Source: Planctomyces sp. (GTDB lineage Bacteria; Planctomycetota; Planctomycetia; Planctomycetales; Planctomycetaceae). From it: a stretch of 43,631 nt of DNA. Numbering within the stretch: the stretch's first letter is position 1; every line of letters begins with the position of its first letter. This document shows positions 6,447 to 41,886 of this stretch, piece by piece. The notes under the pieces were generated by a model. The model did not search any database. It was not told where the DNA came from and saw only the letters and a list, made by a program, of their open reading frames with translations. The stretch is taken from contig SXKJ01000149.1 in NCBI GenBank assembly GCA_005778115.1, positions 1 to 43,631 on the forward strand. The letters run 5' to 3'. The translations under genes were made by a program, and so were the position numbers.

Positions 6447-6518
6447 GTAGGGTGGGTCGAGTCATCGAGACCCACCACGAACGGTCAGCACTCTGGTGGG
6501 TCTCGATGACTCGACTAC
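6447..6518. repeat. GTAG-type REP/BIME-like element
   Basis: Starts GTAG and ends CTAC. The left hairpin has stem GGTGGGTC/GACCCACC (6451-6476); the right hairpin is its inverted copy (6494-6514), with about 17 bases between. There is no T-run, so it is not a normal terminator. It fills the spacer between the DUF1501 gene and the hydrolase gene. Confidence 0.88.
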
Positions 6519-6535
6519 GATTGGAGAGGTGCGTT

Positions 6536-8983
6536 ATGCGACGGCTGATCCTGTGTGTTGTCACAGTCATTGCATTGGGAAGCTTGTTGGCTGCCGTGCG
6601 ACTTGCACCGCCACAAATCGCCCCGGTTATCTCGCAGGCCATCGGGGCCGTGCATCCGCGAATCTCTCCGGATGGAAAAACGATTGCGGTGTCGTATCAA
6701 GGTGCGATCTGGACGATCCCGCGTGTTGGCGGCGCGATGACTCGGCTGATGCATGACGCGGGGTTTGATATCGAGTCGACGTGGTCTCCCGATGGCGAAC
6801 ACATCGCGTATGTCAATTCGCCACGCTTCGGAGCGGGCGATTTGCGAATCGTCACGAAGACCGGTCAGCCGGTGAATGTGCCGAAGCGGATCGAAGTGCT
6901 CGGCACGGTGGCATTTCAAAAAATCGAATGGCTGCCGGGAGACCGAGTATTCGGGGTACTGCGCGTGGACGGGCAGGCGACGGGACTCAGTTGGGTGAAT
7001 TGGAAGACGGGGGAAACGAAGACACTCGCACCGGCACCGCAGTGGGGCCGCTACGCCGCTTCAGTCGATGGGCAATGGGCAGCGTTCACGACGACGCTCG
7101 ATCAACCCGGGCAGCAGACGGGGAATGACGGAGTCTCGGCCGATGTGTGGCGCGTTTCGATCAATGGTGGCGATCCGGAGAAGCTGTTTCGATTCCCGTC
7201 TCGCATTCACGATCTGTGTTGGTCGGCGGACGGGTCGGGGTTCTACGTCGTCAGCGAACTTGGCGGTGGGCAGGCTCACAATGATGTCTGGCATGTGCCG
7301 TTGCGCGAGTCCTTGCAACGGATGAGGATGCTGACGTTGGGACAAGCAGACGAGGATCGGCCGTCGGTCTCGCGCGAGGGACGCTGGCTGGTCTTCACCG
7401 ATAATTAACGCGGCCCGACGTCGCTAGTTGTCCGTGACTTGGCGGACGAATCGGATCGCGTGGTCAAAGTCGAGCGGCTGGAATTCGGCAAGCCGACCGG
7501 ACAGATCAAACTCGCGACGGCCGACCAGGCGAGCGGCACCGCCGTCACCGCGCGAGTGTCGATCACGCAGGTCGATGGCAAACTCTCCGCGCCGCCAGGA
7601 TCGCTGTATCGCACGCTCAACGATGTCGGTCACTTCTATTGTGAGCAATCGGCCGAATGGACCTTGCCTGCCGGCAAGTATCGCGTGCGGGCGTTTCACG
7701 GACTGGAGTATCGGCCGCTGTCGCGCGAGATCGAGATCACGGCGGATCAGACGGCAGAGGTGAAGCTGCCGCTCGAACGTTGGGCCGAGCCGGCGAAACG
7801 CGGCTGGTACTCCGGTGAGAATCACATCCATGCGAACTACGGCTATGGCCAGTGGTACAACTCGCCGGCGACGATGCTGACGCAGTGTGCTGGCGAAGGG
7901 ATCGGCGTCTGCAATTTTGTGGTGGCGAACTCGGAAACCGACGGCATCTTCGATCGCGAGCACTTTCGTGGACGGCTCGATCCGGTCTCCACGAACGAAA
8001 CGCGTCTGTATTGGAATCAAGAGTTCCGCAGCACGATCTGGGGGCACATGACGCTGGTCAATTTGAAGCAGCTCGTCGAGCCGATCATGACCGGCTTCAA
8101 GGAGACGACAAACCCGTGGGACATCCCGACCAACAGCGACATCGCCGATCGCACACATTGGCAACGGGGGCACGTCAATTACACGCACGTCGCGCAGAAT
8201 CCAGAAGACCCGTACCAAAACCCATACACCGGCAAAGGCATTCCGGTCGATGTCGCGCTGGGGAAGATCGACTCGCTGGATTTGAATGCTTCGTATGCCG
8301 GCACAACGGTGCTGTGGCATCGGTTGCTGAACTGCGGCTTTCGCTTACCGGCGTCGGCGGGGACCGACGTGTTCTTGAACCGCGTTGTCAGCCGCCTGCC
8401 GGGTGGCGATCGAGTCTAAGTGAAGATCGACGGGCCGCTCGATTATGGAAAATGGATCGAGGGCCTGCGGACCGGTCGCTCATTCGTGACCAACGGGCCG
8501 ATGCTGGAGTTCTCGGTCGGTACGGCTCAACTCGGCGACACGATCAAACTGGATGCCGCTCGCGAGTTGGCCGTGATCGCCAAGGCGCAATCGCATTTTC
8601 CAATGGCGAAGGTCGAAGTGCTCTACAACGGCGAAGTCGTCGCGAGCGTGCCGCTTTCGGACAACAAACAAAATGCGACGATTGAGAATTCGATCAAGAT
8701 CGACCGCAGCGGTTGGCTGGCATTGCGAGCCTCCGGACCGGGTAACGTCGATCATCCCGTCGGTTCGTTGGATGCGCACACAAGTTCGATCTATGTCGAG
8801 GTCGCCGGCAGTCCTGCAGGAGCTCGCGCGGACGCCGAGTTCTTTCTCAAATGGATCGACCGGCTGTCGCTGGCTCTTTGATTGCGCGATCGCGTGCCGA
8901 ACGATGAACTGCGGAAGCATGTGCAGAACCAACTCGAAGCGGCACGCGCTGTCTACACGAAGATCGCAGAGACGGGACGCTGA
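6536..8983 (+). pseudogene. PD40 beta-propeller / CehA-McbA-type metallohydrolase gene with three in-frame stop codons
   Basis: One reading frame of 815 codons reads as a continuous family protein except for TAA at 7406-7408, TAA at 8417-8419 and TGA at 8879-8881. No frame change occurs. Order: signal peptide (M-R-R-L-I-L-C), PD40/TolB-like propeller repeats (H-P-R-I-S-P-D-G-K near 38, W-S-P-D-G-E-H near 83), then a PHP-like metallohydrolase part with E-N-H-I-H-A-N-Y-G near 428, G-H-V-N-Y-T-H near 545 and G-T-D-V-F near 612. Family sequence resumes directly after every stop (for example L-P-G-G-D-R-V, stop, V-K-I-D-G-P-L-D-Y). ATG at 6536 has GGAGAGG 7-8 bases upstream. If translated normally, only the propeller part (6536-7408, 290 residues) is made. 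Decayed gene, sequencing errors or readthrough are all possible. Confidence 0.85.
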
Positions 8984-9002
8984 TCGCAGGCAGGGGGTCG
9001 GG

Positions 9003-10211
9003 TCACCGCACGGGACTGCTGAACTTGAAGATTGGCAACAGCATGGCGATGGCGATGCCTCCGATGGCGCTTCCCAGGACTGTGATGATCAGCGGTTCGA
9101 GCAAGCTCGTGACCGTCTTCACGGCGTTGGCGACTTCGCGTTCGAGGTATTCGGCGACCTTCTCCAAGACTTTGCCCAGCCGTCCGGTCTTCTCGCCGGA
9201 GGCGATCATCTGCACGACCATTTTGGGAAACAACGCTTGGCCGTGCAGAGCCTCGTGAATCTGGCGACCGGTCGTGACTTGTTCGCCGACCTGTTTCCAA
9301 CAGCTTTCATAGAAGTGGTTGTTGGACGTCCCGCCGCTGAGTTCCAGCGCTTCGAGCATTGGTACTCCGGCATTGAGCGTGGTCGAGAGCGTCCGCAGGC
9401 TGCGACTGAGCGCGACCTTGCGCGACAGACCGTTGAAGGGCGGCAGATAGATCTTCATCCAATCCAGAGCAATGCGGCCTGACTCTTGGCGGAACAGGAA
9501 GATGCCGATCGCCAGCAAGACCAGTGACACACCCAGATACCATGGCCAATACATCGTCATTGACGCCGAAAGGGCCAGCAGGAATTTGGTCGCACCGGGG
9601 ATGTCTTTCTCACGTCCGGCAAACATCGGCATCAGCTTCGGGAAGACGTAGGTCAGCAAAAAGATCACCACGCCGACGCACATCGTGACCATCGCCGCGG
9701 GATAGATCAGCGCGCCTTTGATCTCCGAGCGCATCTCCGACTCGGTGCGGTATTGCGTCGCGATCCGTTCCAGCATCGGGCCAAGCTGGCCGCTGGCTTC
9801 GCTGGCTTTGACGAGGTTCACAAACGCCTTGTCGAAGTGTTTTGGAAATTTCGACAGCGCACTCGACAAGTCGTCCCCCGCTTGCACGCTGTCTTGCAGA
9901 CGCACGGTGAGTGACTTCATCGACGGGTTATCGGTCTGTCCGGCCAGCCCTTCGAGTGCATTTGCAATCGGCACGCCAGCATCAACCATCACCGCCAACT
10001 GGCTGGCGAACTCGACGATGTCCCGCCGCGTGACCGGCTTAGCGAACAGTGACGGCCCTCGCTTGGCGGCACTCTCCGCGACCTCTTCCAGCGAGACCAC
10101 ATACAGGCCCTGCTGCCGAAGCTGTGTTGTCGCGGCTTCCTGGCTGTCGCAGTTCAACTCGCCCGACTTCAGCGAGCCGTTCGTGTCTTTGGCTTGGTAG
10201 ATGAATCGCAT
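9003..10211 (-). CDS. gspF: Type II secretion / type IV pilus inner-membrane protein GspF (PilC)
   Basis: 402 residues, the usual length for GspF/PilC. It has two T2SSF domains: the first around residues 65-190 (Q-L-A-V-M-V-D-A-G-V-P-I-A-N-A-L) and the second around 270-395 (L-S-T-T-L-N-A-G-V-P-M-L-E-A-L). Three hydrophobic segments lie near 165-195, 215-240 and 370-395. The family forms the membrane platform on which the GspE/PilB ATPase acts. ATG at 10211 starts M-R-F-I-Y-Q-A-K-D, the typical GspF N-terminus, with AGGAAA upstream. It lies downstream of gspE on the same strand and is intact, although gspE carries an in-frame UGA. It converges with the broken hydrolase gene 19 bp away. Confidence 0.94.
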   Translation of the reverse strand: MRFIYQAKDTNGSLKSGELNCDSQEAATTQLRQQGLYVVSLEEVAESAAKRGPSLFAKPVTRRDIVEFASQLAVMVDAGVPIANALEGLAGQTDNPSMKSLTVRLQDSVQAGDDLSSALSKFPKHFDKAFVNLVKASEASGQLGPMLERIATQYRTESEMRSEIKGALIYPAAMVTMCVGVVIFLLTYVFPKLMPMFAGREKDIPGATKFLLALSASMTMYWPWYLGVSLVLLAIGIFLFRQESGRIALDWMKIYLPPFNGLSRKVALSRSLRTLSTTLNAGVPMLEALELSGGTSNNHFYESCWKQVGEQVTTGRQIHEALHGQALFPKMVVQMIASGEKTGRLGKVLEKVAEYLEREVANAVKTVTSLLEPLIITVLGSAIGGIAIAMLLPIFKFSSPVR

Positions 10212-10249
10212 GATTGGTTTCCTGAAAGCAAGTTCGGCTGTCTGATCTC

Positions 10250-10272
10250 CTCTCCCCCGCATCGGGGGAGAG
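10250..10272. repeat. Short perfect hairpin between gspE and gspF
   Basis: CTCTCCCCCG (10250-10259), a 3-base loop, then CGGGGGAGAG (10263-10272). It lies in the 92-bp spacer between the two minus-strand genes. No T-run follows on either strand, so it may attenuate or protect the mRNA rather than terminate it. It resembles the palindromic elements elsewhere in the window but is a single hairpin. Confidence 0.7.
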
Positions 10273-10303
10273 GGAGCCGGAATTCACAGATTTCACTCTC
10301 GTA

Positions 10304-12091
10304 TTACGAGTTCGTCTCTGCCTCTCCACCCTTCCCCTTCGCTCCTTCATCCTTCTTCGGCGGTGCCCAGCCTTCATTGCTGGACCGCAGCACTTCTTCA
10401 ACGGTGGTGATGCCCTCTTTGACCTTGCGCAATCCGTCATAGCGCAGCGTGATCATGCCGGACTGCCGCGCGGCTTCGCGCAGCACTCCGAGCGTCGGGT
10501 TCGTGGCGATGATCTCGCGCATGTGGTCGTCGATGACGAGTAGTTCGTGCATTGCGATGCGGCCGGAGTAGCCGGTGTTGCGGAACTTCTTGCATCCGAC
10601 GGGGCGATAGAACGTCTCGACTTCAAGGCTGTAACGTTCCATGACGTGGCGAACGTCTTTCGGCGCGTCGTAGGGCTTCTTGCATTTCGGGCAGAGCCGG
10701 CGACCGAGTCGCTGAGCCAGAACCATGTTCAACGAGGCGGCCAGCAGGTAGCCCTCGACTCAAATATCAAGCAATCGCGTGACCGTGCCGCAGGCGTCAT
10801 TCGTGTGCAACGTGCTGAAGACCAGATGCCCGGTCAGCGCGGCTTGGATCGCGACGCGAGCGGTGTCTTCGTCGCGGATTTCACCGATCAGGACTTTGTC
10901 CGGGTCTTGTCGCAGCAGGCTGCGCAGGACGGCACCGAACGTCAGTCCGATCTTTTCGTTGGTTTGAAACTGATTGATGCCGGACAATTGAAACTCGATC
11001 GGGTCTTCGACGGTGCAGACGTTGGACTCGATCGAGTTGACCGTGTTCAACGCCGAGTACAGCGTGGTGCTCTTGCCGCTGCCGGTCGGGCCGGTGACGA
11101 GGGCGATCCCGTTGGGCTTTTCGAGTTGTTGTCGGAACTGCTCGTAGATGTCGGCGCTGAAGCCGAGCTGTTGCAGCGACATGTTGATCGCTTCGTTGTC
11201 GAGCACGCGGATCACGACCTTCTCGCCGAATTGACCGGGGAGAGTGCTGATACGCAAATCGATCGGATGCCTTTCCATCAGCACATGGATGCGTCCGTCT
11301 TGCGGCAGACGGCGCTCGCTGATGTCGAGACTGGCCATGATTTTGATACGTGATGCGACGGCCGGCGCGAGGTTCATCGGCAGTTCGAGCGACTGGTACA
11401 GCGCGCCGTCTACTCGATAGCGAATCCGCAGCAGCCGGTCGCCAGGTTCGATGTGGATGTCGCTGGCCTTGTCCTTCACGGCGTTGTAGAGAATGTAGTT
11501 GACGAGCTTGATGATCGGGCTTTGTCCGGCGGCAACGGCGTCGCCGGCGATGTCTTCGACGGACGCTTCGATCAGCCGGACCGAGTCCTCCTTCGCGTCG
11601 TCGATGATGTCGTCAATCACGAAAACTCGCTCGTTGGGCAGGTAGGTCTGCACCATGCGGCGAATGTCTTTGGCAGCGGCGATGACGATCTGAATTTCGC
11701 ACTTGGCGACTTCGGCCAGTTGCTCGGCCAGAAAGACGTTGGTCGGCTCGCTGACGGCGACGGTCAGCGTGTTGCGGACTTTGAACAACGGCAGGACCGT
11801 GTGCTTCTCGATCACATCTCGCGGCAGCGTGTCCACGATCTTGGCATCGAACAGCCGGGTGTCGAGTTTGACATACGGCAGCCCCAGTTCGACCGCGAGG
11901 CATTCCAGGACTTGCTCTTCGCTCGCCCAACTCCGCTCGACCAGCAGTTCGCCCAGTAGCTTCGCGCCGCGCGACGAGCGTTGTTCGTCGAGCACGATCT
12001 GCACTTGCTCCTCGCTCAAATAGCCGCGCTTGACCAGCAGGTCACCCAGCCGACGCTTCGGTTCGAGGAGTGAGGAAACAGGACGAATCAT
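10304..12091 (-). pseudogene. gspE: GspE/PilB-type secretion ATPase with one in-frame UGA
   Basis: 595 codons in one frame. An N-terminal MshEN/GspE_N domain ([15 protein letters not shown]) is followed by Walker [11 protein letters not shown] near 365, Walker [11 protein letters not shown] near 425 and H-T-N-D-A near 453. TGA occurs at 10762-10760, right after R-L-L-D-I, where the family has M-G-V-E-P; sequence resumes V-E-G-Y-L-L-A-A-S-L-N-M-V. The C-terminal zinc motif has C-P-K-C but then G-C-K-K-F, so the fourth cysteine is replaced by Phe. GGA to TGA and TGC to TTC would both be G-to-T changes. Start is the ATG at 12091 ([12 protein letters not shown]). A product ending at UGA (10760-12091, 443 residues) keeps both Walker motifs but loses the C-terminal zinc region. 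Confidence 0.85.
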
Positions 12092-12112
12092 GACGCACCT
12101 GGGCTCTGACTT

Positions 12113-15973: not shown

Positions 15974-15979
15974 TGAATT

Positions 15980-19998: not shown

Positions 19999-20081
19999 AA
20001 AGACACTTTGTCCCAACGTAGCCGAACTCGTGAGAGTTTGGACCGAAGTCTCACGACTTCGGCGACAAGGAAGCGTGGTCT

Positions 20082-22519: not shown

Positions 22520-25261
22520 ATGAATAGGACCGATGGGACTCATACGACGTATACGACTCATCAGTCCCATTCGGCTGACGACGACACGCTCGACACCGCG
22601 TTGGAACGCGGGTGCCGCTGGATGATCGACGCCGCGCTGGCCGCGTGTGTGTTCGCCGTCCCCTGTTTGCTGGGTGGCCGCATCGCACTGGGACAATGCG
22701 TGCTGGCCGTCAGCGCGGCGGTCGCGGCGTTGGCGTGGTCGGTTAGTGTCTTGTGCGGTCGTCGACCAACGTGGACTGTCACCTATGTCGAACCGCTGTT
22801 GCTGGCGGTCATTGGAGTCGGACTGCTGCAAGTCACTCCGCTGCCGCCAGGGCTGTTGCGATTTGTGTCTCCTCAGCACGGCAAGTTGCTGCCATTGTGG
22901 TCGGGAGATGCCGAAGTCGCCGGATCGTTGGGAGCTTGGCAGACTCTTTCATTGAATGTCGGAGAGACTCGGCAGGCGATGATCATCGGATTGAGCTACG
23001 TCGCGTTGTTCTTCGTGGCAGCGCAGCGGCTGCGGCGAGTCGGTGATATCGAACGTCTGTTGAAATGGATCGCGGCCTCGACCGGATTGATGGCGCTGTT
23101 CGGGGTCGTGCAATGGCTGACGAGCAACGGCAATTTCTTTTGGTTCTACGATTACCCGCTGACGACCTCCGGCCAGCGAATGAAGGGGGCGTTCACGAAT
23201 CGGAATCACTTCGCAGAGTTTTTGGCGCTGGGCTGTGCTCCGTTGCTGTGGTGGATTCTGAAGGTGCTCGAACAACGCTCGGTCACAAGCCACAGCTTCG
23301 GGCGTGCTGAGTCTCGCAACAATCACGACACGCTGCTCGGTGGCTTGTTGTTGTTACTGGGAGTGTTGGTCTTCGCGGCATTGTTCTCGCTGTCGCGCGG
23401 TGGAACGGTGGCACTGAGCGTGTCGATGGTGGTGATGCTCGGCTTGCTGTTCCGCGCCGGCCGGTTGTCGGGCCGAGTGGTCAGCGTCTTGCTGGGGATC
23501 TCGTTGATTGCCGGCAGCCTGTTCCTGGCGTTTGGTTCCGACAAGGTGGTCGATCGGCTCGACAACTGGGAATCGGATGAACGGCTGGCGGTGTGGGATG
23601 CGAACTGGCAAATCATCCGCGACTTCCCGTTGTTTGGAACGGGTCTGGGAAGTCATGCGGAAGCGTGTCCGATGTATTACGACCCACCGTTCGGCGACGT
23701 GGAATTCACTCACGCCGAGAATTCGTACTTGCAAGTCGCATCCGAGTGTGGCGTGCTTGGCCTGAGCTTGGCGTTACTGGCGATCGGCTGCTGCATGACG
23801 TGGTGCTGGCGAACGATTCGCTCGCGAGCTGATGTGCGAATCCGCGTGTTATCGGCGGCGGTGACGGCCGGCTTGGCGGCGAATCTGGTTCATGCCCTCG
23901 TGGATTTCTCCTGGTTCGTGCCGGGCTTGATGGTGATCGTCGTTCTGCTGGCGGCGTGTGCTAGGCGGTTGGATCAGTTGGCGACCAGCCGTAGTGCAGA
24001 AGGCTCGCCTGCATCTTCTAAAAACAGTGCAGGCGAGCCGCCTGCACTACGGGCAACCGCCACTCCCATGCCACGCGGCTTGGGCTTCGCGGCGGCGGCG
24101 ATCACGGTCGCATGCTCGTTATGGGCGCAGCCGCACTTGCAACAGCATGCACAGGGCGAGCCGCACTGGTTCGATTACCTGCGGTTGGCACTGCCTCAAA
24201 AGGGAATGGTGGCGACGACTTCAGACGACACCGAAGTAACCGAGGACGAACGGACTTCTCAGTTCAAGCAACGGCTGGCGGCGCTGAACGCGACCGTGAA
24301 GCTCGATCCGTCGCACGCGCGAGCTCAGTTGCGGTTGGCTTCGGCGTATCTCGCGGCATTCGATCACTTGCAGCAACAAAGCGACGATCCGATGTCGCTG
24401 TCGCAACTGCGCGACGCGGCCCAAGCAGCGCAGTTCGAGTCGGTCGAGGCGATGCGCGAATGGCTGGACCGCGCGGTCGGAAAGAACGTGAAATATCTCG
24501 ATGCGGCCGCTCGGCACGCGAAGAAGGGAGTGCAGCTTTGCCCGTTGCAGGGGCAAGCCTACGTCCACTTGGCCGAACTGCGATTCCTGGAGGATCTTGC
24601 TCCGCAGCATGGAACGGCGCTGTTACGGCAAGCTCAATTGGTCCGTCCGCAATCGGCGACGGTGCAGTTTGCTGTGGGACGCCAGCACTGGCTCGATGGA
24701 CAAGTTGAGAAGGCCCTGGAGTCGTGGAAGCTCGCGTTTCATCAAGACAAGAATTCGCAGGAGCAAATCCTGACACTGTTGGTCGGAAACGTGCCGGCAC
24801 CGGTGATCCTCAACAGCCTCCAGCCGGACCTTACGGCGTTGCAGCGTTTGGAGGCCCGCTACTTCAACGATCAGCATCCGCTCGCGGAACATCCCGTGGT
24901 CGCGCGAGCCTATGCGGAAGCGTTGAAGAAAGAACTCGCGAACCCGGAATGCGATCAGCCGGTCGAACGGATGATCGCTGCGGCCGCCGTTTACAACCGT
25001 CTGGACGACACCGAGGCGACGGAAGCCTGCCTGCGTCGCGCGCTGGAGATCGACCGCTCGTCATTCGCCGCCCGCAAGATGTACGGCGTGTTTTTGTACG
25101 AGCACGCGGAGTACGCGAAAGCCTCCGAACATCTCAATTGGTGCGTGCGGATGGCTCCCAACGACCGTTGGCTGCGCGGTATCGCCGAGGATGCTCTCGA
25201 CCAGAGTTCGCGAACCATTCAACCCGCCGGCTTTGAATCACGCAGCCGCATCCGCCGCTGA
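22520..25261 (+). CDS. O-antigen ligase / Wzy-like polymerase with C-terminal TPR region
   Basis: 913 residues. About ten to twelve hydrophobic segments fill residues 35-480. The Wzy_C/O-antigen ligase region includes G-A-F-T-N-R-N-H-F-A-E-F near 225, the loop L-F-G-T-G-L-G-S-H near 370 and H-A-E-N-S-Y-L-Q near 400, which in this family lie in the periplasmic catalytic loop. From about 570 the protein is soluble and helical with TPR-like repeats (A-R-A-Q-L-R-L-A-S-A-Y-L near 595; A-E-A-C-L-R-R-A-L-E-I-D near 835). ATG at 22520 has GAGGTGA upstream. A GTAG palindrome (23991-24050) lies in frame between the two parts. Third gene of the polysaccharide operon; polymerase or ligase cannot be distinguished by sequence alone. 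Confidence 0.88.
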   Translation: MNRTDGTHTTYTTHQSHSADDDTLDTALERGCRWMIDAALAACVFAVPCLLGGRIALGQCVLAVSAAVAALAWSVSVLCGRRPTWTVTYVEPLLLAVIGVGLLQVTPLPPGLLRFVSPQHGKLLPLWSGDAEVAGSLGAWQTLSLNVGETRQAMIIGLSYVALFFVAAQRLRRVGDIERLLKWIAASTGLMALFGVVQWLTSNGNFFWFYDYPLTTSGQRMKGAFTNRNHFAEFLALGCAPLLWWILKVLEQRSVTSHSFGRAESRNNHDTLLGGLLLLLGVLVFAALFSLSRGGTVALSVSMVVMLGLLFRAGRLSGRVVSVLLGISLIAGSLFLAFGSDKVVDRLDNWESDERLAVWDANWQIIRDFPLFGTGLGSHAEACPMYYDPPFGDVEFTHAENSYLQVASECGVLGLSLALLAIGCCMTWCWRTIRSRADVRIRVLSAAVTAGLAANLVHALVDFSWFVPGLMVIVVLLAACARRLDQLATSRSAEGSPASSKNSAGEPPALRATATPMPRGLGFAAAAITVACSLWAQPHLQQHAQGEPHWFDYLRLALPQKGMVATTSDDTEVTEDERTSQFKQRLAALNATVKLDPSHARAQLRLASAYLAAFDHLQQQSDDPMSLSQLRDAAQAAQFESVEAMREWLDRAVGKNVKYLDAAARHAKKGVQLCPLQGQAYVHLAELRFLEDLAPQHGTALLRQAQLVRPQSATVQFAVGRQHWLDGQVEKALESWKLAFHQDKNSQEQILTLLVGNVPAPVILNSLQPDLTALQRLEARYFNDQHPLAEHPVVARAYAEALKKELANPECDQPVERMIAAAAVYNRLDDTEATEACLRRALEIDRSSFAARKMYGVFLYEHAEYAKASEHLNWCVRMAPNDRWLRGIAEDALDQSSRTIQPAGFESRSRIRR
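23991..24050. repeat. GTAG-type REP/BIME-like element inside the polymerase gene
   Basis: Starts GTAG and ends CTAC, with 23-base arms (23991-24013, 24028-24050) differing at two positions. The right arm is itself a hairpin (TGCAGGC, loop GAGCC, GCCTGCA). It encodes a linker around E-G-S-P-A-S-S-K-N-S-A-G-E between the membrane and TPR parts. Confidence 0.87.
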
Positions 25262-28645: not shown

Positions 28646-28699
28646 CGTAGCGACCCGGTTTATCGGGTCGAGCCCGCCCCGATGAATCGGGTCACTACG
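28646..28699. repeat. GTAG-type REP/BIME-like element
   Basis: GTAG at 28647-28650 and CTAC at 28695-28698. The left hairpin has stem GACCCG/CGGGTC with loop GTTTAT; the right hairpin has CCCGA/TCGGG with loop TGAA as read on the plus strand. Spacer between greA and the PQQ-propeller gene. Confidence 0.85.
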
Positions 28700-28744
28700 A
28701 GCGATCGTTCGACCTACGAACCCACAACCATACCGGAGAGAAAC

Positions 28745-29995
28745 ATGCGGAGCGTTCTGGCGATTGCCGTTCTCGGTTTTGCGGTGACGAGTGCCTCAGC
28801 GGGTGATTGGTCGGAATTTCGTGGCCCGACCGGACAAGGACATGCGGACGGCTCGAAGCTGCCGACCGAATGGTCCTCGACGAAGAACGTCACTTGGAAA
28901 CAAGACATTCCGGGACTCGGCTGGTCCTCCCCCATCGTGGTTGGCGATCGCATCTACTTGACGAGCGCCGTGCCCACCGGCGACGGAGACAAAAAGGATC
29001 AGTCGCTGAGAGCGATGAGCCTGAGCGTCGCCAGCGGCAAACCGGTTTGGGATACCGAGGTCTTTTTGCACGACGCTCAAACGATCGGCCGGATTCACGG
29101 CAAGAACAGTCATGCCAGTCCAACTCCAGTCTCTGATGGCAAACATCTCTTCGTCCATTTCGGCACACATGGCACCGCGTGTCTGACGCTCGACGGCAAG
29201 ATCGTCTGGCAAAACCGCGAATTGAAATACGTGCCGCAACACGGCAGCGGTGGCTCACCGATCCTCGTCGATGACATGCTGGTTGTGTCGTGCGATGGAG
29301 CGAACGCTATGTTTGTCGTGGCGCTCGATAAGGGAACTGGGAAGATTCGCTGGCAAACCACTCGCGAGCACAAAAACGGCACCAAGTTCTCCTTCGGCAC
29401 ACCTCTGTTGATCGAGGTGAATGGCGAGAAGCAAATCGTCTCCCCCGGCACGTTCCACGTAGCCTCGTATCGTCCGAAAGATGGCCAGGAAATCTGGCGT
29501 GTCGATTACGGGTCAGGCTACTCGGTCATTCCGCGCCCGGTCTTTGGGCACGGCTTGGTTTTTGTCAGTTCCAGCTATGACACGCCAACGCTGCTGGCGA
29601 TCAAGCCGGATGGGAAAGGCAACGTCACTGAAACGCACGTCGCCTGGAAGGTGACCAGCAAGTTGATGCCTCACACTCCGTCGCCGTTGCTTGTTGGCGA
29701 TGACTTGTACGTCGTCGGCGATGGCGGAGTCGCGACCTGCTTCAAAGCGGCAACCGGCGAGCAAGTCTGGCAGGATCGCGTCGGCGGCAACTATTCCGCG
29801 TCGCCTTTGTTTGCTGACGGCAAGATCTATCTGCAAAGCGAGCAAGGGGACGGCATCGTCTTGCAGCCCGGCCCGAAATACATGGAGCTAGCAAAGAACC
29901 CGCTGGAGCCGCGTACGTTTGCGTCGTATGCCGTGGCCGACGGGGCGTTGTTCATTCGGACGGAGAAACAGCTCTACCGAATTCAGCAGCAGTAG
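28745..29995 (+). CDS. Exported PQQ-like beta-propeller protein
   Basis: 416 residues. A signal peptide (M-R-S-V-L-A-I-A-V-L-G-F-A-V-T-S-A-S-A) is followed by W-S-E-F-R-G-P-T-G-Q-G, the usual start of planctomycete PQQ-propeller proteins. Repeated propeller blades follow, each with A-x-D-x-x-T-G-x-x-x-W type patterns (D-K-G-T-G-K-I-R-W near 200; A-A-T-G-E-Q-V-W near 337). No dehydrogenase active-site residues are evident, so it is more likely a structural or binding propeller. ATG at 28745 has GGAG about 8 bases upstream; an upstream in-frame ATG at 28682 lies inside the palindrome and is rejected. The TAG stop lies in the GTAG terminus of the next palindrome. Confidence 0.9.
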   Translation: MRSVLAIAVLGFAVTSASAGDWSEFRGPTGQGHADGSKLPTEWSSTKNVTWKQDIPGLGWSSPIVVGDRIYLTSAVPTGDGDKKDQSLRAMSLSVASGKPVWDTEVFLHDAQTIGRIHGKNSHASPTPVSDGKHLFVHFGTHGTACLTLDGKIVWQNRELKYVPQHGSGGSPILVDDMLVVSCDGANAMFVVALDKGTGKIRWQTTREHKNGTKFSFGTPLLIEVNGEKQIVSPGTFHVASYRPKDGQEIWRVDYGSGYSVIPRPVFGHGLVFVSSSYDTPTLLAIKPDGKGNVTETHVAWKVTSKLMPHTPSPLLVGDDLYVVGDGGVATCFKAATGEQVWQDRVGGNYSASPLFADGKIYLQSEQGDGIVLQPGPKYMELAKNPLEPRTFASYAVADGALFIRTEKQLYRIQQQ

Positions 29996-30097
29996 GGTGG
30001 GACAAGCTCGCTTCGAGCGCCGGCCCACCAATACGGCAACACAATTGCTCAGCGACTGGTGGGCCGGCGCGGCGAAGCGCCGCTGGTCCCACCCTAC
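29992..30097. repeat. GTAG-type REP/BIME-like element carrying the stop codons of both flanking genes
   Basis: Begins GTAGGGTGGGAC and ends with its complement GTCCCACCCTAC. The left half contains an inner hairpin GCTCG/CGAGC and the right half GCGGCG/CGCCGC, so inner stems differ but each is self-complementary; the shared outer stems (GGTGGG/CCCACC) are conserved. The TAG at 29993-29995 ends the PQQ gene, and CTA at 30094-30096 is the TAG stop of cysE on the other strand. Confidence 0.9.
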
Positions 30098-31026
30098 GAC
30101 GCTTCGCGGAAGCGAAGCTGTGGTTTTTCCATCGTGACTTGCGTGTTGGGAGGGACGCTCTTGGTGATCGCGCAGCTGGAGCCGATCACCGAGTTCTTAC
30201 CCACGACCGTCTCGCCGCCGAGCACTGTGCCGTTCGCGTAGATCACGACACCTTCTTCGATCGTCGGATGCCGTTTTGCGCCGCGGATGATGTTGCCGTT
30301 TTCGTCCTTCGGAAAGCTGAGCGCTCCGAGCGTCACGCCTTGGTAAAGCTTCACATTGCGTTCGATAACGGTCGTTTCGCCGATGACCACGCCATTGCCG
30401 TGATCGATGAAGAACGACGGGCCGATCTGGGCTCCCGGATGAATATCGATGCCGGTGCGGCTGTGCGACCACTCGGACATGATCCGTGGGATGAACGGCA
30501 CTTGCAGGCGGTACAACTCGTGGGCGATCCGATGCACGGTGATCGCTTCGAGGCCGGGATAGCAGAAGATGATCTCGTCGAGCGTCTTGGCGGCCGGATC
30601 GCCATCGAACGCGGCTTGCACATCGGAGGCCAACATCCGCCGCATCTCCGGCAGCGATTCGAGAAACGCGAATGTTCGTACCTGAGCGGGCATCAGGAAG
30701 TCGATCGCGGAACCATCCGCATCGACGGGTGGGCTGACGCGGGACTCATGCTCGAGCGCACGGGCAATTTGCTCGGCCAGAGAGTCATAAATGCCGTCGA
30801 TGAGATCACCGGTGTGATACACGACGTTGCCAAGGTGCAAGTTCTGGCGACGGCGATAGCCGGGATACAGCACCTCGGTCAAATCAAACAGGATCTGGAT
30901 GATCGCCTCGCGGCTGGGCAACGCCGAATGGCCGAGATGATTGATCGAACCAATTTGCTGGTACGTCGCGACGATCTGATTGGTCAGATCGGGCAGACGG
31001 GATTTGAACGGGACATTGCTGGACAT
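30094..31026 (-). CDS. cysE: Serine O-acetyltransferase
   Basis: 310 residues. It transfers acetyl from acetyl-CoA to serine, the first step of cysteine synthesis. The N-terminal helical domain is followed by the left-handed beta-helix of hexapeptide repeats: D-I-H-P-G-A-Q-I-G (about 194-202), [12 protein letters not shown] near 206, Y-Q-G-V-T-L-G-A-L near 228, H-P-T-I-E-E-G-V near 250 and G-S-S-C-A-I near 283. The H-G near 209 matches the catalytic His region of the family. ATG at 31026 has GGAG 7 bases upstream; the frame is open to a GTG at 31143, without a better start. Confidence 0.94.
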
Positions 31027-31322
31027 TGTGCGGCTCCTGCGAACGGGCTGGCTGCCGCGAGACAACGTCTTTGGCAGAGACAGCGGAGCGTCTGACGACA
31101 AATCCGGAACGAATAAGCGAAGTGCGGCGTTCACGGCAGACACCTTCGGCAGATTCTAAGTAAGCGAACTGGGATCGTCAGCCTGGAAAGGGAGACGTAC
31201 TTCGTCAGCATCGGCCGCAGAAGACGTACGCCCTGAACGATTCCGAGAACCGTCACGTCCGGCAATATTGCGAAACTTTGCCGAAGAGCGATTGATGACG
31301 ACCTGCCCCTGTGCCAGAGGAA
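31027..31322. other. Spacer upstream of cysE
   Basis: About 300 bp between cysE and the glyoxalase-fold gene, both on the minus strand. The first 117 bp are open in the cysE frame, but the sequence does not look like CysE. I see no further gene, palindrome or clear promoter. Confidence 0.45.
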
Positions 31323-35206: not shown

Positions 35207-35329
35207 GGCTCGTCCCCCAATACACGACACGGCACTCGAACCGAGTGTCTCGTTCGTCGTTATCGGCTTTCGACCCAAACGGTGATAACGAGAAAACCGA
35301 TTGAGGAAACACTGTCACGCGGACGAAAC

Positions 35330-35402: not shown

Positions 35403-35405
35403 GAC

Positions 35406-36383: not shown

Positions 36384-36399
36384 TGCGAAACCTTCGTAA

Positions 36400-36458
36400 G
36401 TAGGAGGGGCACTCTTGCCCCTCTCGCATCACCAGACGGGCAGGAGTGCCCGTCCTAC
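36400..36458. repeat. GTAG-type REP/BIME-like element
   Basis: Starts GTAG and ends CTAC. The left hairpin has an 8-bp stem GAGGGGCA (loop CTCT); the right hairpin has GACGGGCA (loop GGAG). The stem difference (AGGGG against ACGGG) is matched on the other side of each stem. It lies in the spacer before hemC. Confidence 0.9.
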
Positions 36459-36499
36459 AAAATGACTTCGGCTTGCACCGACCGCTGGATTGTGACGAC

Positions 36500-38824
36500 T
36501 CAGTGATTGAACACGAACTCGGAGCTATTGAGCAACGTCCACAACAAATCTTGCAAGCCTTCGGCGCGAGATGGTGCCTCGCGCAACAACTCTTCAATCG
36601 AAGTAAGTTCATCGGCACGCGGCCGGCGCGACAACGTGGCCAGGTACAATTCTTCCAGCACTTCTGTCTCAGGCTTGTTGGCTTTCAGCAGCGTCGCGAG
36701 CCGGCCGTTCTCGCCGATGACTTTCTGATGGAGCGTCGTGCTATTGACCAAGTGCAACGCCTGCGACAAATCGGGGTTTCCCGCACGAGCACAATCGCAG
36801 GCGTTGTTTCGCAACGGTCGGCCGAAGGTGGACAAGAACGTCGAGACAAACGATGGGTCCGCCAGAGCGATCGCCCGTGTCCCCAGCGGTTGTCCGTCGA
36901 ATGCTTCGGGACTTCCGGTGACCTGCGAGACCGCATCGAGCAACACCTCGGCAGTTAATCGTCGCGGGACGCGATGCGTGCAGAGTTGTCCGTCGGGATC
37001 ACGGCTTGGCTGAAGCTCGCTGGCGAGTTGATAAACGCGCGAGTTGCAGATGACTCGCAACAGGTGTTTCGCATCGAATTTTTGTTCGGTCAGTTCACGA
37101 GCCAACCGATCCAAAACAGCCGGCATCGCCGCCGGATTGGTCGCACGCAGGTCATCGACTGGATCAACCAAACCACGTCCAAACAGTGCGGCCCACGAGC
37201 GGTTCACCATATTGCGAGCGAAGTACGGGTTGTCCGCGCTCGTCATCCAGCGGGCCAACCAGACGCGCGGATCGGCGGACGGATCAGTGGTCGGCAGCGG
37301 TTCGTGAAACGCTTTTGGAGTGACGGCAATTGCCAGCATGCGATTGGGATTCGGTTTCGCCGCGACGCGCAGGCTGCGCGGCCCGCCGAAGCGTGCGCCA
37401 TACGCACCGGAGTCCTTCGACTCCAATCGCGTAAAAAACGCGGCCAAGCCCCAATAGTCGTCCTGAGTCCAAACCTCTTGCGGGTGATGATGGCAGCGAG
37501 TGCATTGCATCCGCACGCCGAGAAAAACTTGAGCGGTCGTCTCGGCGAGATCTTCAACCTTTTCGTCGATGAAGAAGTAACCAACCGCTCCATTCGCATA
37601 GAGGTTCCCCTGCGCGGTCAGAAGCTCGCGAGTCATCACATCTAGCGGCTTGTTATCGCGGAGCGATTGCTTTAGCCAACCGGTGAAGCTCGCGAGTCCC
37701 TTGTCGCCGAGGAAGCGGCGATGTGACCGCAACAGATCGCCCCAACGCATTGCCCAATAATCGACATACTCCGGCCGCGCGAGCAACCGGTCGATCCACT
37801 CTACTCGCTTGTCGGCGGCGGTGTCGGCCAGGAAAGATCGTAATTCCTCCGGAGTCGGCAGTGTGCCAATCAAGTCGAGACCGACACGTCGCAAGAACTC
37901 TTCGTCGCTCGCCATCGGAGCGGGCCGCACACGCATCCGCTGCCATTCGGCAAGGACCAGTTCGTCGATGAAGTTCGCGGGTTGGAATTCCATCGCGACC
38001 GGCTCGGCCGAGAACGGCACGGCGACGCTGATCGTCGCGCTCTGTCCCAGGTACCGCACCATCACCGCCGTCTTGCCGGCTCGCTGAGCCATCACGCGAC
38101 CGGTTCGGCTAACCTCGGCAATGTGACTTTCGCGCACATCGAAGAGCGTCCACGCGGTCACGTCGCGTGTCTCTCCGTCGGCGAAGGTGGCCTGCACCGC
38201 CAGCGACTGCGCCTGGTTCGGCATGAGCGTGACGTCGCTCGGCTGAGCGGTCAGCTTGATACCGATCAACTCGCCCTCGCGCGGTCCCGGCATCCCGGCA
38301 AGTTGCCAGTCACGAAGGATCGCGAACACTTCCGACTCGCGAGAGATTCTCCGACCGCCGCCATGAGGAATCTCGCCAACTGGTTTCTTCAGCAACAAAC
38401 TCGACTCCGGAGCGGCCGGCACAACGCGCCGGCTACGGCTGGCTTTCGTCAGCACTTCATGGTCGAAGTCCGGATCAAACCCAAGCAGCGAGAGTCGAAA
38501 CCCGCCACGCCCTTGAAACGAACCGTGACACGCACCCGCGTTGCAGCCAGCTTTCGTCAAAGCGGGCGAAACATCGCGCACGAAGCTGATCGACCGAGCT
38601 TGCGCAGGGGTACTGGCGAGTCGTGCCGAGACCGGATCAGGTGGCTCGGCCCCAATTGCAAACGAAGCGGTAATCGATACCAGAAGAAAGAAAACAGCCG
38701 ACGTAGTCACGTTCGCCAGAACGTGGGTCTTCGCAACCGTCCCCCACACTCTGGCGAGTGTGGCTACGGCGCGTGCGGTGGCGGAGAGCGCAGCGACGCT
38801 CTTGAAACCGATTTCACTTCGCAT
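36500..38824 (-). CDS. PSCyt2/PSD1 (DUF1549-DUF1553) protein with CX4CH motif and Ig-like domain
   Basis: 774 residues. A signal peptide-like helix sits unusually late (A-V-F-F-L-L-V-S-I-T-A-S-F-A-I-G-A, residues about 43-60). Next come A-G-C-N-A-G-A-C-H-G near 93, a CX4CH variant of a heme c motif, a BIG2-like Ig domain (L-T-A-Q-P-S-D-V-T-L-M near 190), DUF1549 (C-T-R-C-H-H-H-P-Q near 440) and DUF1553 (N-P-Y-F-A-R-N-M-V-N-R near 535). ATG at 38824 has AAGGAG 7 bases upstream and overlaps the end of the preceding gene by 11 bp. The palindrome 38703-38767 lies between this start and the signal helix. There is no adjacent DUF1501 gene, unlike the pair at 1553-6431. Confidence 0.9.
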   Translation of the reverse strand: MRSEIGFKSVAALSATARAVATLARVWGTVAKTHVLANVTTSAVFFLLVSITASFAIGAEPPDPVSARLASTPAQARSISFVRDVSPALTKAGCNAGACHGSFQGRGGFRLSLLGFDPDFDHEVLTKASRSRRVVPAAPESSLLLKKPVGEIPHGGGRRISRESEVFAILRDWQLAGMPGPREGELIGIKLTAQPSDVTLMPNQAQSLAVQATFADGETRDVTAWTLFDVRESHIAEVSRTGRVMAQRAGKTAVMVRYLGQSATISVAVPFSAEPVAMEFQPANFIDELVLAEWQRMRVRPAPMASDEEFLRRVGLDLIGTLPTPEELRSFLADTAADKRVEWIDRLLARPEYVDYWAMRWGDLLRSHRRFLGDKGLASFTGWLKQSLRDNKPLDVMTRELLTAQGNLYANGAVGYFFIDEKVEDLAETTAQVFLGVRMQCTRCHHHPQEVWTQDDYWGLAAFFTRLESKDSGAYGARFGGPRSLRVAAKPNPNRMLAIAVTPKAFHEPLPTTDPSADPRVWLARWMTSADNPYFARNMVNRSWAALFGRGLVDPVDDLRATNPAAMPAVLDRLARELTEQKFDAKHLLRVICNSRVYQLASELQPSRDPDGQLCTHRVPRRLTAEVLLDAVSQVTGSPEAFDGQPLGTRAIALADPSFVSTFLSTFGRPLRNNACDCARAGNPDLSQALHLVNSTTLHQKVIGENGRLATLLKANKPETEVLEELYLATLSRRPRADELTSIEELLREAPSRAEGLQDLLWTLLNSSEFVFNH
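38703..38767. repeat. GTAG-type REP/BIME-like element inside the N-terminus of the second PSD1 gene
   Basis: Starts GTAG and ends CTAC. Left hairpin: stem CACGTTC/GAACGTG, loop GCCA. Right hairpin: stem CACACTC/GAGTGTG, loop TGGC. The arms differ at five positions, yet both are perfect 7-bp hairpins. In the gene it encodes V-A-T-L-A-R-V-W-G-T-V-A-K-T-H-V-L-A-N-V between the start codon and the signal helix. Confidence 0.93.
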
Positions 38825-40757
38825 CCGCTGACTCCTTGGCTCGCGAGACTTGCCGCAACTCGCCAGTCTTGGCTCGGAAGACGTACACGCTCCGATTCGG
38901 AAACTCTGCGGCGATTTTTTCCAAGGGCCAAGGATAGCGACCTCGCATCACGTCTGCCGAGAGGCTGGGTTCGTTCACGACATAGTCGATGTGCCGATCC
39001 GCCGGGTCCGCCTCGATCAACACGAGCGCCGGACGTTGGCGAACTTCGCGACGCAAAAGTTCGTCGAACGCTTGATACTTCAGCCGCGAAAACGCGATCT
39101 GCTCGACACCGTACTGCAGCTTCGACGGATACCAGAGTGGCGCAACGTCGATCAAATTGACCATGACGGCCGAGCCGATCAAGCAGCCCCACCAAATCGG
39201 CATCCGCGGACGCTCCGCGGCCAGCCAAGTACGGGAGAGCGTGTCCGTCACAGACGCGAGCAAAAGGCACCACAATGGACCAGTCTCGAAGACGTAGTGC
39301 CAATGAAAGATTCCGTCGAACCAATAGGGCACATGCACCGCGAACAGCGACACGATGGACGCGAAGATCAACCACCACCGTTGGTCGCTTACGTGGGGGG
39401 CGTCTTCAACGTGCCCGTCACCCGACGCTCTAAACATAAACAGGCCGGGCACGTTGGAAACGTGCCCCACGACAAAGACGATCAATGCCGCTAACAACGG
39501 CACAAGGCCGACCGTCCATTGCCACGATGCGAGCAATCGGTTCTGCGCGTTCTCGACCGCCAGCGCGGGAGTCAGATTGATCGCCCAGCGGTCGTAGTGA
39601 TCGAGGACTCGCGGGCCGAGATGCTGCTCACCGCGCACGACGTTGTTGAACCCGTAGACGTGCCGAGGCGTGTAGGTGTCATTGAAGACCTGATACGGCG
39701 AGGTCGTCACGCTGCCCGTGATCGCGTGGTTGTGAATTCCGAGCACCACAAACCCAACGATCAACGGCAAGGCCATCGCAAGCAATGGCCGCAACACGAA
39801 CCCGACGCGCAAGCGAGGAACGACTAGTTCCCGCCCCTCGCTGGCGCGTCGGGTTAGTATCGCGACAAACACGACTCCAAACGGCAGCGCGAATCCCGCC
39901 GCTGTCATCGGACGACAGAGCATCGCCCAACTCAGGCCGATGCCGGCCAACGCCGAATCGCGAACCAAGCCGCGCCGCAACCATCTCAGAAACGACCACG
40001 CGAAGAGGAACAACCCCAGCAACGTCGGATGATGCGCCAGCACCAGATTGCCAAACAGGGCCATTCCCGGCGACAGCGCTGTCAGCATTCCCGCGACGAA
40101 TCCGGTGCCGTTGCTCGACAGCTCGCGACCGATACCAAAGACCAACACAGCCGCCGCCGCACCGGCCAGCCAATGTCCCAGGATCGGCCATCCCAGCCAC
40201 AACCACGGTGCGACGAACAATCCCGTCGCGGGGAAGTAACGACTCGCGAATCGACCTTCGTTGACGACGTGCATCTGATCGAACAACCGCGCCGCGGTCG
40301 GATGACTCGGATACGAAAGTCGCCCCGCAAGATACGTCTGCGCTTGGAACAAGTAGCTGTACTCGTCGTGATAGGCCGGCGGCAGGTCTCCGAAGTGGTA
40401 TTGCTCGCGATCACCGACTGGCATGACCGCCACGCGATAACACATCGCTAGCGATGTCCCGGCGATGAGAATTGTCGCTCGAATTGACCACCGTGACTCC
40501 ACGCCTGCGTTCCACCAAGTTTGCAGTCGCCGCCAGCGATCCCCTTCCAGCGTCCAAAACGGTCGTCGCACGAACCAGAAGTAGGGCAGCAACACGATCA
40601 ACAGCATCGGCAGAGTCGTATCGACGTTGATACCGAACGAGTCCGGTGTGCGGAGAACTTCTCGCCAGTGAACGAACTCGGCCGGCAGCACGATCGCTAA
40701 CGCGACCAGTAACGCCGCCGCTTGAGCGATCACGATGCGGCGAGGAAGCTGCGACAC
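38814..40757 (-). CDS. ArnT/PMT-like membrane glycosyltransferase (GT39/GT83 type)
   Basis: 647 residues with about ten to twelve membrane helices over residues 8-520, then a soluble C-terminal part (about 540-647). The extracytoplasmic segment [11 protein letters not shown] near 128 carries the acidic pair typical of GT-C transferases using polyprenyl-phosphate sugars, followed by F-P-A-T-G-L-F near 175. Such enzymes add sugars to lipids or proteins on the outer face of the membrane. The start is a GTG at 40757; no ATG is near. Two palindromes (39392-39471, 39799-39855) lie in frame inside the gene. It is divergent from gmd and overlaps the downstream PSD1 gene. Donor and acceptor are unknown. 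Confidence 0.8.
39392..39471. repeat. Palindromic element inside the glycosyltransferase gene (CGTGGGG type)
   Basis: Left arm 39392-39417 (starts CGTGGGGGGCG) and right arm 39446-39471 (ends CGTGCCCCACG), imperfect inverted repeat. The right arm is a hairpin (GCACGTT, loop GGA, AACGTGC). It encodes H-V-S-N-V-P-G-L-F and H-V-E-D-A-P-H-V-S in a loop between helices. Confidence 0.82.
39799..39855. repeat. Palindromic element inside the glycosyltransferase gene (ACCCGACGCGC type)
   Basis: 20-base arms: AACCCGACGCGCAAGCGAGG (39799-39818) and its near reverse complement (39836-39855), with a 17-base loop. It encodes [15 protein letters not shown] in a cytoplasmic or periplasmic loop. Confidence 0.85.
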
Positions 40758-40816
40758 GGCAAACTCTTGGGGGGCTGATTGCGAGAGACAACACCGGGAA
40801 TCATACTCGCCGCATC

Positions 40817-41800
40817 ATGACCGAAACCACGCAACGCGTCGCATTCATCACCGGCATCTCCGGACAAGACGGTTACTACTTATCGAAGCTGCTTATGGAG
40901 AAAGGCTATGCCGTTCACGGGTTGATTCCGTGCAATGCTCCCGGAATCGGTGAGCCTCCGGACGTCAATCTGCATTACGGCGATTTGGCCGAGGGGGGCA
41001 ATTTTGGCGCGTTGCTCGACAAGATCCGGCCGGATGAGGTCTACAACCTGGCAGCTCAAAGCCACGTGCGGTTGTCCTTTGATCTGCCGGTCTATACGGC
41101 GAACGTCACGGGAGTCGGCGTGCTACGCTGGCTGGAGGAGATTCGCCTGCATCAGTTTCGCACCGGCCGGAGCGTGCGGTTCTATCAAGCTTCGACCAGC
41201 GAGATGTTCGGCAAAGTCAAAGCCGCGTTGCAGAACGAAGAGACTCCGTTTCATCCGCGCAGCCCCTATGGCTGTGCAAAGGTCTTCGGCTACTGGCAGA
41301 CGATCAACTATCGCGAGTCTTACGGTCTCTTCGCCTGTAACGGGATTCTGGTTAATCACGAATCACCGCGCCGGGGCGAAGGGTTTGTGACTCGCAAAAT
41401 CACGTTGGCCGCCGCCCGCATCAAGCTCGGTCTGCAAGACAAACTGTCGCTGGGCAATCTCGACTCGCAGCGGGATTGGGGGTTCGCGGGAGACTATGTC
41501 GAGGCCATGTGGCGGATGCTCCAACAGGATCAACCCGACGACTACGTGGTCGCCACCGGTGAGACGCATACGATTCGCGAATTCCTCGAAGAAGCGTTCC
41601 GTCACATGGGACTTGATTGGCAAAAGCACGTGGTGCAAGACCCGCGTTTTCTGCGACCAGCGGAGGTCGATCTGCTGTGCGGCGATGCCAGCAAAGCTCG
41701 GCGAGTCCTGGGCTGGAAGCCCAAAGTCTCGTTCCGAGAGTTGGCACAAATGATGGTTGAGTCCGACCTAGAACTGGTTCGGCGGGAAGTGAGCCGATAG
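40817..41800 (+). CDS. gmd: GDP-mannose 4,6-dehydratase
   Basis: 327 residues, the normal length. It converts GDP-mannose to GDP-4-keto-6-deoxymannose, the entry to GDP-fucose and related deoxy sugars. Extended SDR signatures: [13 protein letters not shown] (8-20) for NADP binding, Y-N-L-A-A-Q-S-H-V near 77, S-T-S-E-M-F-G near 124 and S-P-Y-G-C-A-K (Y-x3-K, about 149-155) as the catalytic pair, then N-H-E-S-P-R-R-G near 176. ATG at 40817 lacks a strong ribosome binding site. It is divergent from the membrane glycosyltransferase with only 59 bp between; its product could feed the polysaccharide operon at 18712-25261. Confidence 0.95.
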
Positions 41801-41820
41801 GTTTCCGCACCGCTGTCAGA

Positions 41821-41886
41821 GTCGCCGCGTTTCGCCAGAACGCGGGCCTTCACGGAATGACCCGCGTTCTGGCGAAACGCGGCTAC
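41821..41886. repeat. GTAG-type REP/BIME-like element (one terminus mutated)
   Basis: The left terminus reads GTCG instead of GTAG; the right ends CTAC. Arms of 26 bases (41821-41846, 41861-41886), each a hairpin with stem CCGCGTT/AACGCGG around a CGCCAG/CTGGCG loop. The loop core GCCA/TGGC is shared with the element at 38703-38767, so the two are sister copies. Confidence 0.9.

Follow-up and report, generated by a model that had tools for sequence, protein, structure and literature searches.

Head-to-head GTAG-tagged REP hairpin doublets of several families in a Planctomycetota draft genome

Hairpin doublets along the window

The window, i.e. the whole stretch of 43,631 nucleotides analysed here, belongs to a Planctomycetota draft genome and carries a series of short inverted hairpin doublets, which are given below without strand. 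The seven elements listed in a preliminary description, each reading GTAG, hairpin, spacer, inverted hairpin and CTAC, were all found in place, and at least three further doublets were identified (20018-20066, 4078-4129 and about 39394-39470). Each of these elements consists of two GTAG-tagged REP hairpins placed head to head, as in BIMEs or REPINs. The seven had been regarded as one family, a view that gave way to at least six families of two structural types: bulged hairpins (6447 and 29992) and, for the remaining families, perfect 8-bp stems closed by loops of 3-4 nt. When folded as DNA, 10 of 10 hairpins lay below their shuffled counterparts (z from -2.75 to -4.70).

The bulged type is represented by family A (6447-6518), with a GGTGGG lower stem, a GA bulge, a TCGA upper stem and the loop GTCA, and by family K (29992-30097), with a GGTGGG lower stem, an internal loop and two unlike upper stems. 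The family K doublet fills the gap between two convergent genes, and its outer TAGs coincide with the stop codons of both ORFs. Among the perfect stems, the GNNA-loop family comprises the doublets at 38703-38767 (C/G, with two different compensated stems), 41821-41886 (with one extra base per hairpin and a left foot mutated to GTCG) and 20018-20066 (C/G, with a right foot GTCG). Family D (36400-36458) has the loop YTCY, family E (28646-28699) the loop TTYA, and family F (23991-24050) the loop GCT. CACGTTC/GAACGTG and CACACTC/GAGTGTG, initially opposed to each other as distinct stems, proved to belong to one family with one loop (GCCA).

Two doublets have a GTGG foot, one at 4078-4129 and the other, whose left half is degenerate, at about 39394-39470; the right hairpin of the latter is identical to a hairpin flanking a Y1 gene, L149, of genome G001. 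At least two doublets sit inside ORFs: 4078-4129 lies within ORF 1544-5008, encoding a DUF1549/DUF1553 protein, and 23991-24050 lies in frame within ORF 22520-25261 (forward strand), encoding an O-antigen-ligase-like product with a Wzy_C domain.

Copy number and stem covariation

GTAG hairpins were expected to exceed those of shuffled sequence, and they did: the window contains 25, while 20 dinucleotide shuffles average 8.4 +/- 2.3; under a stricter score it contains 14, compared with 3.05 in shuffles (maximum 6). This first detector was loose, and at its strictest score it accepted 11 of 109 GTAG sites, 0-4% of sites for most other tags and, in the window, 5 of 44 CTAG sites. The question was settled by a stricter test on 704,663 bases, in which an 8-bp stem with a loop of 3-5 nt began at 103 of 1867 GTAG sites (55 per 1000) and at 0 to 6.9 per 1000 sites of 19 control tags, CTAG scoring 0 of 526. 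Such stems thus hardly occur in this sample behind tags other than GTAG.

The same 704,663 bases hold 43 convergent GTAG pairs, i.e. inverted doublets, of which at least one is chance-like (L092:2120-2233) and two on L097 have a common end. Scaled to the squared tag count, such pairs reached 12.3 for GTAG and 0 to 1.6 for 18 of the 19 control tags, the exception being TAGG (25.1), which, overlapping GTAGG, picks up the same elements. The pair detector is strict and passes only three of the seven window elements (29992, 36400 and 38703). As in REPs, GT[AG]G stands immediately 5' of the palindrome, certain copies being GTCG-footed. Three families are both dispersed and of high copy number, with 203 matches to the GTAGGGTGGG pattern (10 for the reversed pattern), 213 to that of the GNNA family (5 in the control) and 110 to that of family D (none in the control). 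With gene calls made crudely from the longest ORFs with a GC3 weight, so that counts are only indicative, 39 of 105 REP starts fell outside ORF calls, where 13% of the bases lie, and 66 fell inside (87% of the bases).

When 62 of the 66 listed hairpins were aligned, four doubtful ones being excluded, gaps followed the families and the columns did not match the stem register; patterns with free stem columns were therefore used in place of a covariance model. The compensatory changes announced between stem arms were borne out: among the 100 of 213 GNNA matches listed, the five stem pairs left unconstrained by the search pattern were Watson-Crick in 93.8% of cases, and in 89.6% when 56 distinct rows were considered (2000 shuffles: mean 47.9%, maximum 57.1%). 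From copy to copy of one family, the stems vary with compensation but the foot and loop are constant. The idea that every element remains self-complementary held only in part since, despite this large excess of compensated changes, three elements each have a damaged half: by reading, the right hairpin of 6447 has lost its outer 3' arm, the left hairpin of 23991 carries mismatches, and the right hairpin of 28646 has one mismatch.

Y1 transposases and their hairpins

Consistent with the preliminary description, two family searches found no Y1 gene on the contig of the window. The genome does encode Y1 transposases, with 16 PF01797 matches, two of them above the REP_Tyr_transpos cut-off. One of these two, the RAYT L016 (also L107), is flanked by the hairpin of 6447. 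L016 matches NF047646 with 184 bits (cut-off 80), aligns with the solved relative 4er8, named TnpArep (E 1e-41), and displays the HUH motif PDHLHSVW followed downstream by YLHWNP, of the Y..NP form; all of these are marks of a RAYT (TnpAREP). Its predicted substrate is a single-stranded GTAG-GGTGGGTC hairpin. In the genus mate G004, the REP beside the RAYT L130 is letter-identical to the left hairpin of 29992, and the loop and foot of 28646 also flank the RAYT L159.

The pairing extends to the genus, where the Y1 sample covered 82 of 91 PF01797 places, with 9 places and many weak NF047646 matches lying outside it. A repeated GT[AG]G hairpin occurs within 420 nt of 39 of 123 Y1 genes, and on both sides of 32, ten loci being duplicates and L192 and L196 being dropped for want of a profile match; around 3000 random positions the corresponding values were 3.9% and 0.13%. 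REPs are carried by 15 of 20 RAYTs of the DHxH..W type. RAYT similarity tracks hairpin similarity (Mantel r 0.44, reached in 0 of 5000 permutations, maximum 0.26), and the earlier deduction of several RAYT specificities from varied stems was therefore right as to the specificities, but enzymes need not differ where stems vary inside one family, since its foot and loop are unchanged.

Taken together, these elements are very probably REP doublets of at least six families, each spread, now or formerly, by its own RAYT. As a single strand, the repeat would fold into a GTAG-hairpin, of which the RAYT, an HUH enzyme with one tyrosine, would read the foot and a few bases of the loop or bulge while tolerating compensated changes in the stem; the enzyme might then cut beside the hairpin and move one or both hairpins.

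For three window families, GNNA (38703, 41821 and 20018), D (36400) and F (23991), no cognate RAYT was found among the sampled Y1 loci. Relaxed GNNA and D patterns run across the Y1 loci identified hairpins near several genes, bracketing none. Seven stretches with close-spaced GNNA or D copies all contained hairpins; ORFs were listed in two, and by reading these resemble housekeeping genes. GNNA is among the commonest families, yet is RAYT-less in the sampled loci. In G011, GNNA copies number 30, against 7 in the control, yet there is no Y1 match. Most likely, such families outlived a RAYT that was lost or switched, or rely on one that was missed, and those of 38703 and 41821, of 36400 and of 23991 may have been mobilised in trans by an enzyme for which there is no candidate here. 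It is unlikely that a RAYT of relaxed specificity belonging to another family, or some unknown protein, moved them. G004 speaks for this possibility, as at least ten GNNA doublets whose hairpins and spacing are identical, among the 100 listed of its 500 matches (G002 has 356), look recently copied there and no RAYT for GNNA was found; against it, contigs are often broken by repeats, the 9 unsampled Y1 places might hold the enzyme, and RAYT loss or switch accounts for the same situation in pseudomonads (PMC3686654).

Orthologous gaps and known systems

When orthologous intergenic gaps of sister species were compared, some held an element and others did not, and a different REP family was present in 12 of 28 comparisons, the same family in only 2. 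This family change was the least expected result, and open-access titles and abstract openings yielded no report of REP families that differ at a given orthologous site. Certain gaps might tentatively be viewed as lasting docking places, in which unrelated families, of either structural type and with either a GTAG or a GTGG foot, succeed one another as RAYT families turn over; jointly with this, and just as tentatively, the commonest family may spread in the genus without a dedicated RAYT. If docking places exist, what outlasts the sequence is the place and perhaps also a function at 3' ends. Family change at one gap makes it possible to test selfish leftovers against places that need a hairpin of any family.

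The 29992 gap, where the outer TAGs fall on both stop codons, was occupied by a doublet or another hairpin in 6 of 8 sister cases, mostly of another family, as might be expected if doublets were retained chiefly for a role at RNA 3' ends, as terminators or mRNA stabilisers, and families were interchangeable; location downstream of genes is also usual in other species (PMC3733652). This explanation is nevertheless improbable as the main one, since termination needs neither a constant GTAG foot nor a RAYT pairing, two doublets sit within ORFs, and the flanks of the seven window elements lack the T run of an intrinsic terminator. At the orthologous site of 38703, the same stem pair differs in both hairpins, being A-T here and G-C in G002 and G004, the pattern that would arise if a single substitution were transferred to each of the four arms. 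Quasipalindrome correction, a template switching in replication that is established in E. coli, could keep stems complementary in this manner with no enzyme now reading the structure; re-insertion of another copy would look alike, and correction leaves unexplained why foot and loop are constant, why copies are so many and why RAYT and hairpin types match, which makes it quite unlikely. A derivation from the ends of IS200/IS605-type insertion sequences, or miniature forms of them, moved by class 1 TnpA is highly improbable: repeated GTAG hairpins do lie near 3 of 19 class-1.2-like TnpA genes, on both sides of one (L001), but they come from non-window families, none of the 19 has a window family on both sides (near L212 there is a single isolated GNNA hairpin), and the genes with which families A, K and E are paired are of the RAYT type (L016, L130 and L159).

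RAYT-spread REP doublets remain the preferred reading, and these elements are a rich new planctomycete example within a class of tiny repeat that is already known; they do not form a novel class. Di Nocera et al. 2013 (PMC3733652) had already described genomes with several GTAG REP families, and a planctomycete with many tyrosine transposases. Their REPs share with ours the GTAG foot, stems of 6-13 bp with compensated variants, head-to-head homo- and heterodimers, repeat-specific RAYTs, some copies within genes and the coexistence of several families in one genome, that of the planctomycete R. baltica among others. The present elements differ in their stems and loops (compared without the consensus sequences of its Figure 1), in their planctomycete lineage, and in that sister species carry different families at the same gap. 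Pseudomonas and Stenotrophomonas REPINs (Nunvar et al. 2013, PMC3686654) likewise form doublets with several REP classes per genome; that study ascribes abundant RAYT-less classes to loss or 'orthoswitch' and proposes partial replacement of old REP variants, whereas here unrelated families, differing in loop, stem and structural type, share the same gap across species. In TnpAY1 subclasses 2.1 and 2.3 of Quentin et al. 2018 (PMC6006769), genes are nearly REP-less, as are the NHWH and NH[FY]H genes here (1 of 27); subclass 1.2 is listed there as REP-less, in contrast to the similar-looking genes mentioned above. The bulged hairpins 6447 and 29992 with their DHLH RAYT resemble the E. coli TnpAREP/REP system (4er8; group 2), and the perfect 8-bp stems with short loops resemble that of S. 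maltophilia (group 3); for a Stenotrophomonas RAYT, foot and loop recognition with a tolerant stem was measured (PMC8266576). Unlike in those two systems, both structural types occur here in one genome, and recognition is predicted from sequence; with its many RAYT/REP pairs of both types and their clear covariation, the genus offers material for establishing what a RAYT reads.

Architecture and abundance of the doublets

The window corresponds to contig C106 of a draft assembly that totals 7,433,801 bases over 515 contigs; its genes contain the planctomycete domains PSD1, PSCyt1 and PSCyt2, and the titles of the 80 loci nearest to one of them were almost all Planctomycetota, mainly metagenome-assembled. 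The seven elements of the preliminary description were all recovered at their coordinates, each consisting of two GTAG-hairpins placed head to head. Taken singly, the hairpins of four families combine a GTAG foot with an 8-bp stem and a loop of 3-4 nt, namely GNNA (38703-38767, a doublet at 20018-20066 absent from that description, and 41821-41886, a variant carrying an additional base), YTCY (family D, 36400-36458), TTYA (family E, 28646-28699) and GCT (family F, 23991-24050). A bulged type, found at 6447-6518 and 29992-30097 (family K), has GGTGGG as its lower stem, separated by an internal loop or bulge from the upper stem. The bulged architecture explains the contrast of GCTCG/CGAGC with GCGGCG/CGCCGC in the preliminary description: it concerns the upper stem of one single family, both versions also flanking that family's REP-associated transposases (RAYTs) in relatives. 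Three doublets are additional to the seven: 20018-20066 (GTCG foot), 4078-4129 and 39394-39470 (both with GTGG feet).

In an own-genome sample of 60 stretches plus the window (704,663 bases), an 8-bp hairpin started at 103 of 1867 GTAG sites (55 per 1000), compared with 0 to 6.9 per 1000 for 19 other four-letter tags. Convergent GTAG pairs, 43 in number (3 in the window and 40 outside, a few being chance-like or having a common end), were well over 18 of the 19 control tags, the count for TAGG being high because of its overlap with GTAGG. Genome-wide, GTAGGGTGGG had 203 matches against 10 for the reversed control pattern, the GNNA family 235 against 23 (213 against 5 with one further fixed base) and family D 110 against 0. 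The sample also contains dispersed families of hairpins whose foot is not GTAG: CTTTCGCTCCGCGAAAG behind GTCG (6/6) and two further cores behind GTGG (4/4 each).

Stem covariation and differing families at orthologous gaps

In the GNNA pattern the foot, both loop-closing pairs, the ends of the loop and the final base are fixed, leaving five free stem pairs. These were Watson-Crick in 93.8% of cases at 100 listed of the 213 own-genome places, and in 89.6% over the 56 distinct rows, compared with a mean of 47.9% and a maximum of 57.1% in 2000 shuffles of those rows. Each family is united by foot, loop and upper stem, most variation occurring in the lower stem, as in NNCGGACG with loop CCTA. At the orthologs of 38703 in two genus mates, G002 and G004, the doublets differ from that of the window by one compensated pair in both hairpins. 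Such covariation would be expected from an enzyme reading foot and loop and tolerating stem change, a mode of recognition measured in a Stenotrophomonas RAYT through mutation and SELEX (PMC8266576).

For four elements, the orthologous gaps of up to nine genus mates were examined, counting the 28 cases with both flanks found close together (nine for 28646, eight each for 29992 and 38703, and three for 36400). Two held the same family, 12 a different GT[AG]G family (including two GTGG), four other hairpins, and 10 no REP-like hairpin, among them G003 at 29992 with a degenerate single GTAG hairpin; some contents were called by reading, since the 7-bp rule misses hairpins that are bulged or degenerate. 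The twelve different-family cases are non-independent and amount to eight site-and-family combinations (three, three, one and one). At 36400, six further mates have the left flank alone in common, because a different gene comes next there, and carry family D (two), family B (one), a CCCT-loop family (two) and another hairpin (one). As a background, GTAG REPs occupy 31 of 293 gaps of at least 30 nt (10.6%; own-genome sample, crude gene calls). The excess over this background, uncontrolled for gap length and permissiveness, suggests repeated arrival or retention of doublets in some gaps.

Doublets also occur inside genes. That at 23991-24050 lies in frame within a 913-aa Wzy_C protein; it is present in the G002 ortholog (91% identical) and reduced to a 14-nt stub in that of G004 (about 89%), with single-hairpin remnants in three other orthologs (by reading) and none in four. 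The GTGG doublet 4078-4129 lies within a DUF1553 ORF (1544-5008). At 29992-30097, the TAG of each outer foot is the stop codon of convergent ORFs 28682-29995 (+) and 30094-31143 (-), both stops thus being supplied by the doublet.

RAYT genes and their hairpins

Searches of the own genome for Y1 genes returned 16 matches with PF01797 and 13 with NF047646 at E 0.01, two of the latter over the cut-off. By its sequence, L016 on contig C501 is a clear RAYT (NF047646 184 bits, cut-off 80; E 1e-41 to PDB 4er8, named TnpArep; motifs DHLH and YLHWNP), with one 6447-type hairpin upstream and a full doublet downstream. L012 (contig C185) is flanked by a loop-TTCC family, common in the sample and absent from the window, and a third RAYT, split across the ends of contigs C406 and C147, has loop TCC. 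RAYTs of family K were found in G001 (two), G004 and G002 (cut by a contig end), and the left hairpin of 29992 is letter-identical to one REP adjoining that of G004, which also has a family E RAYT. The GTGG hairpin 39448-39470 is identical to one adjoining a Y1 gene of G001 (L149). The own genome further contains a class-1.2-like TnpA gene with an internal stop codon (L009, C132), likely a pseudogene, and two Y1 genes with HVH motifs (L011, L014) resembling class 3 of PMC6006769, whose members are described there as having CnGA-footed flanking structures.

The association was surveyed over 123 Y1 genes from the own genome and its relatives at genus, family and class level (135 loci, minus 2 without a match and 10 duplicates). 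A repeated GT[AG]G hairpin lay within 420 nt of 39 of them, on both sides in 32; for 3000 random own-genome positions, the figures were 3.9% and 0.13%. By roughly assigned motif class, such hairpins accompanied 15/20 genes of the DHxH..W type, 14/28 of the other Y..NP type, 1/16 NHWH, 0/11 NH[FY]H, 3/19 class-1.2-like, 5/17 class-3-like or other HVH, and 1/12 of the rest. Protein and hairpin similarity were correlated among the 39 (Mantel r 0.44; 0/5000 permutations, maximum 0.26), near-duplicate pairs contributing and the tree being uncorrected. Three class-1.2-like genes (L001, L212, L214) have repeated GTAG-footed hairpins nearby, on both sides in L001 only; three others (L005, L006, L008) have CCCAGGGC hairpins without a GTAG foot (by reading), a core occurring 8 times in a 661-kb sample.

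For GNNA, D and F, the 82 of 91 genus PF01797 places covered and the NF047646 matches listed yielded no RAYT. All 12 genus genomes contain GNNA, in 30 to 500 copies against control counts of 1 to 7; one of them is G011, in which neither family search returned a Y1 gene. Recent spread in G004 is suggested by 10 doublets that agree exactly in hairpins and spacing, among 100 listed of 500 GNNA places. A RAYT of these families may possibly have been overlooked, as contigs often end at repeats; orphan REPs of pseudomonads have been attributed to RAYT loss and 'orthoswitch' (PMC3686654).

Place among known REP systems

PMC3733652 already describes GTAG REPs that pair head to head as hetero- and homodimers, belong to several families in one genome and include intragenic copies; R. 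baltica is one of its hosts, described as having 'a plethora of tyrosine transposase genes and corresponding flanking repeats'. The present elements are a rich new example of this kind. Subclass 1.2 TnpA is listed as without REPs in PMC6006769, in contrast to the class-1.2-like genes found here near repeated hairpins. Two features go beyond the available text of PMC3733652: the co-occurrence in one genus of bulged and perfect types, each with its own RAYTs, and, within a limited literature search, the change of REP family at orthologous gaps.
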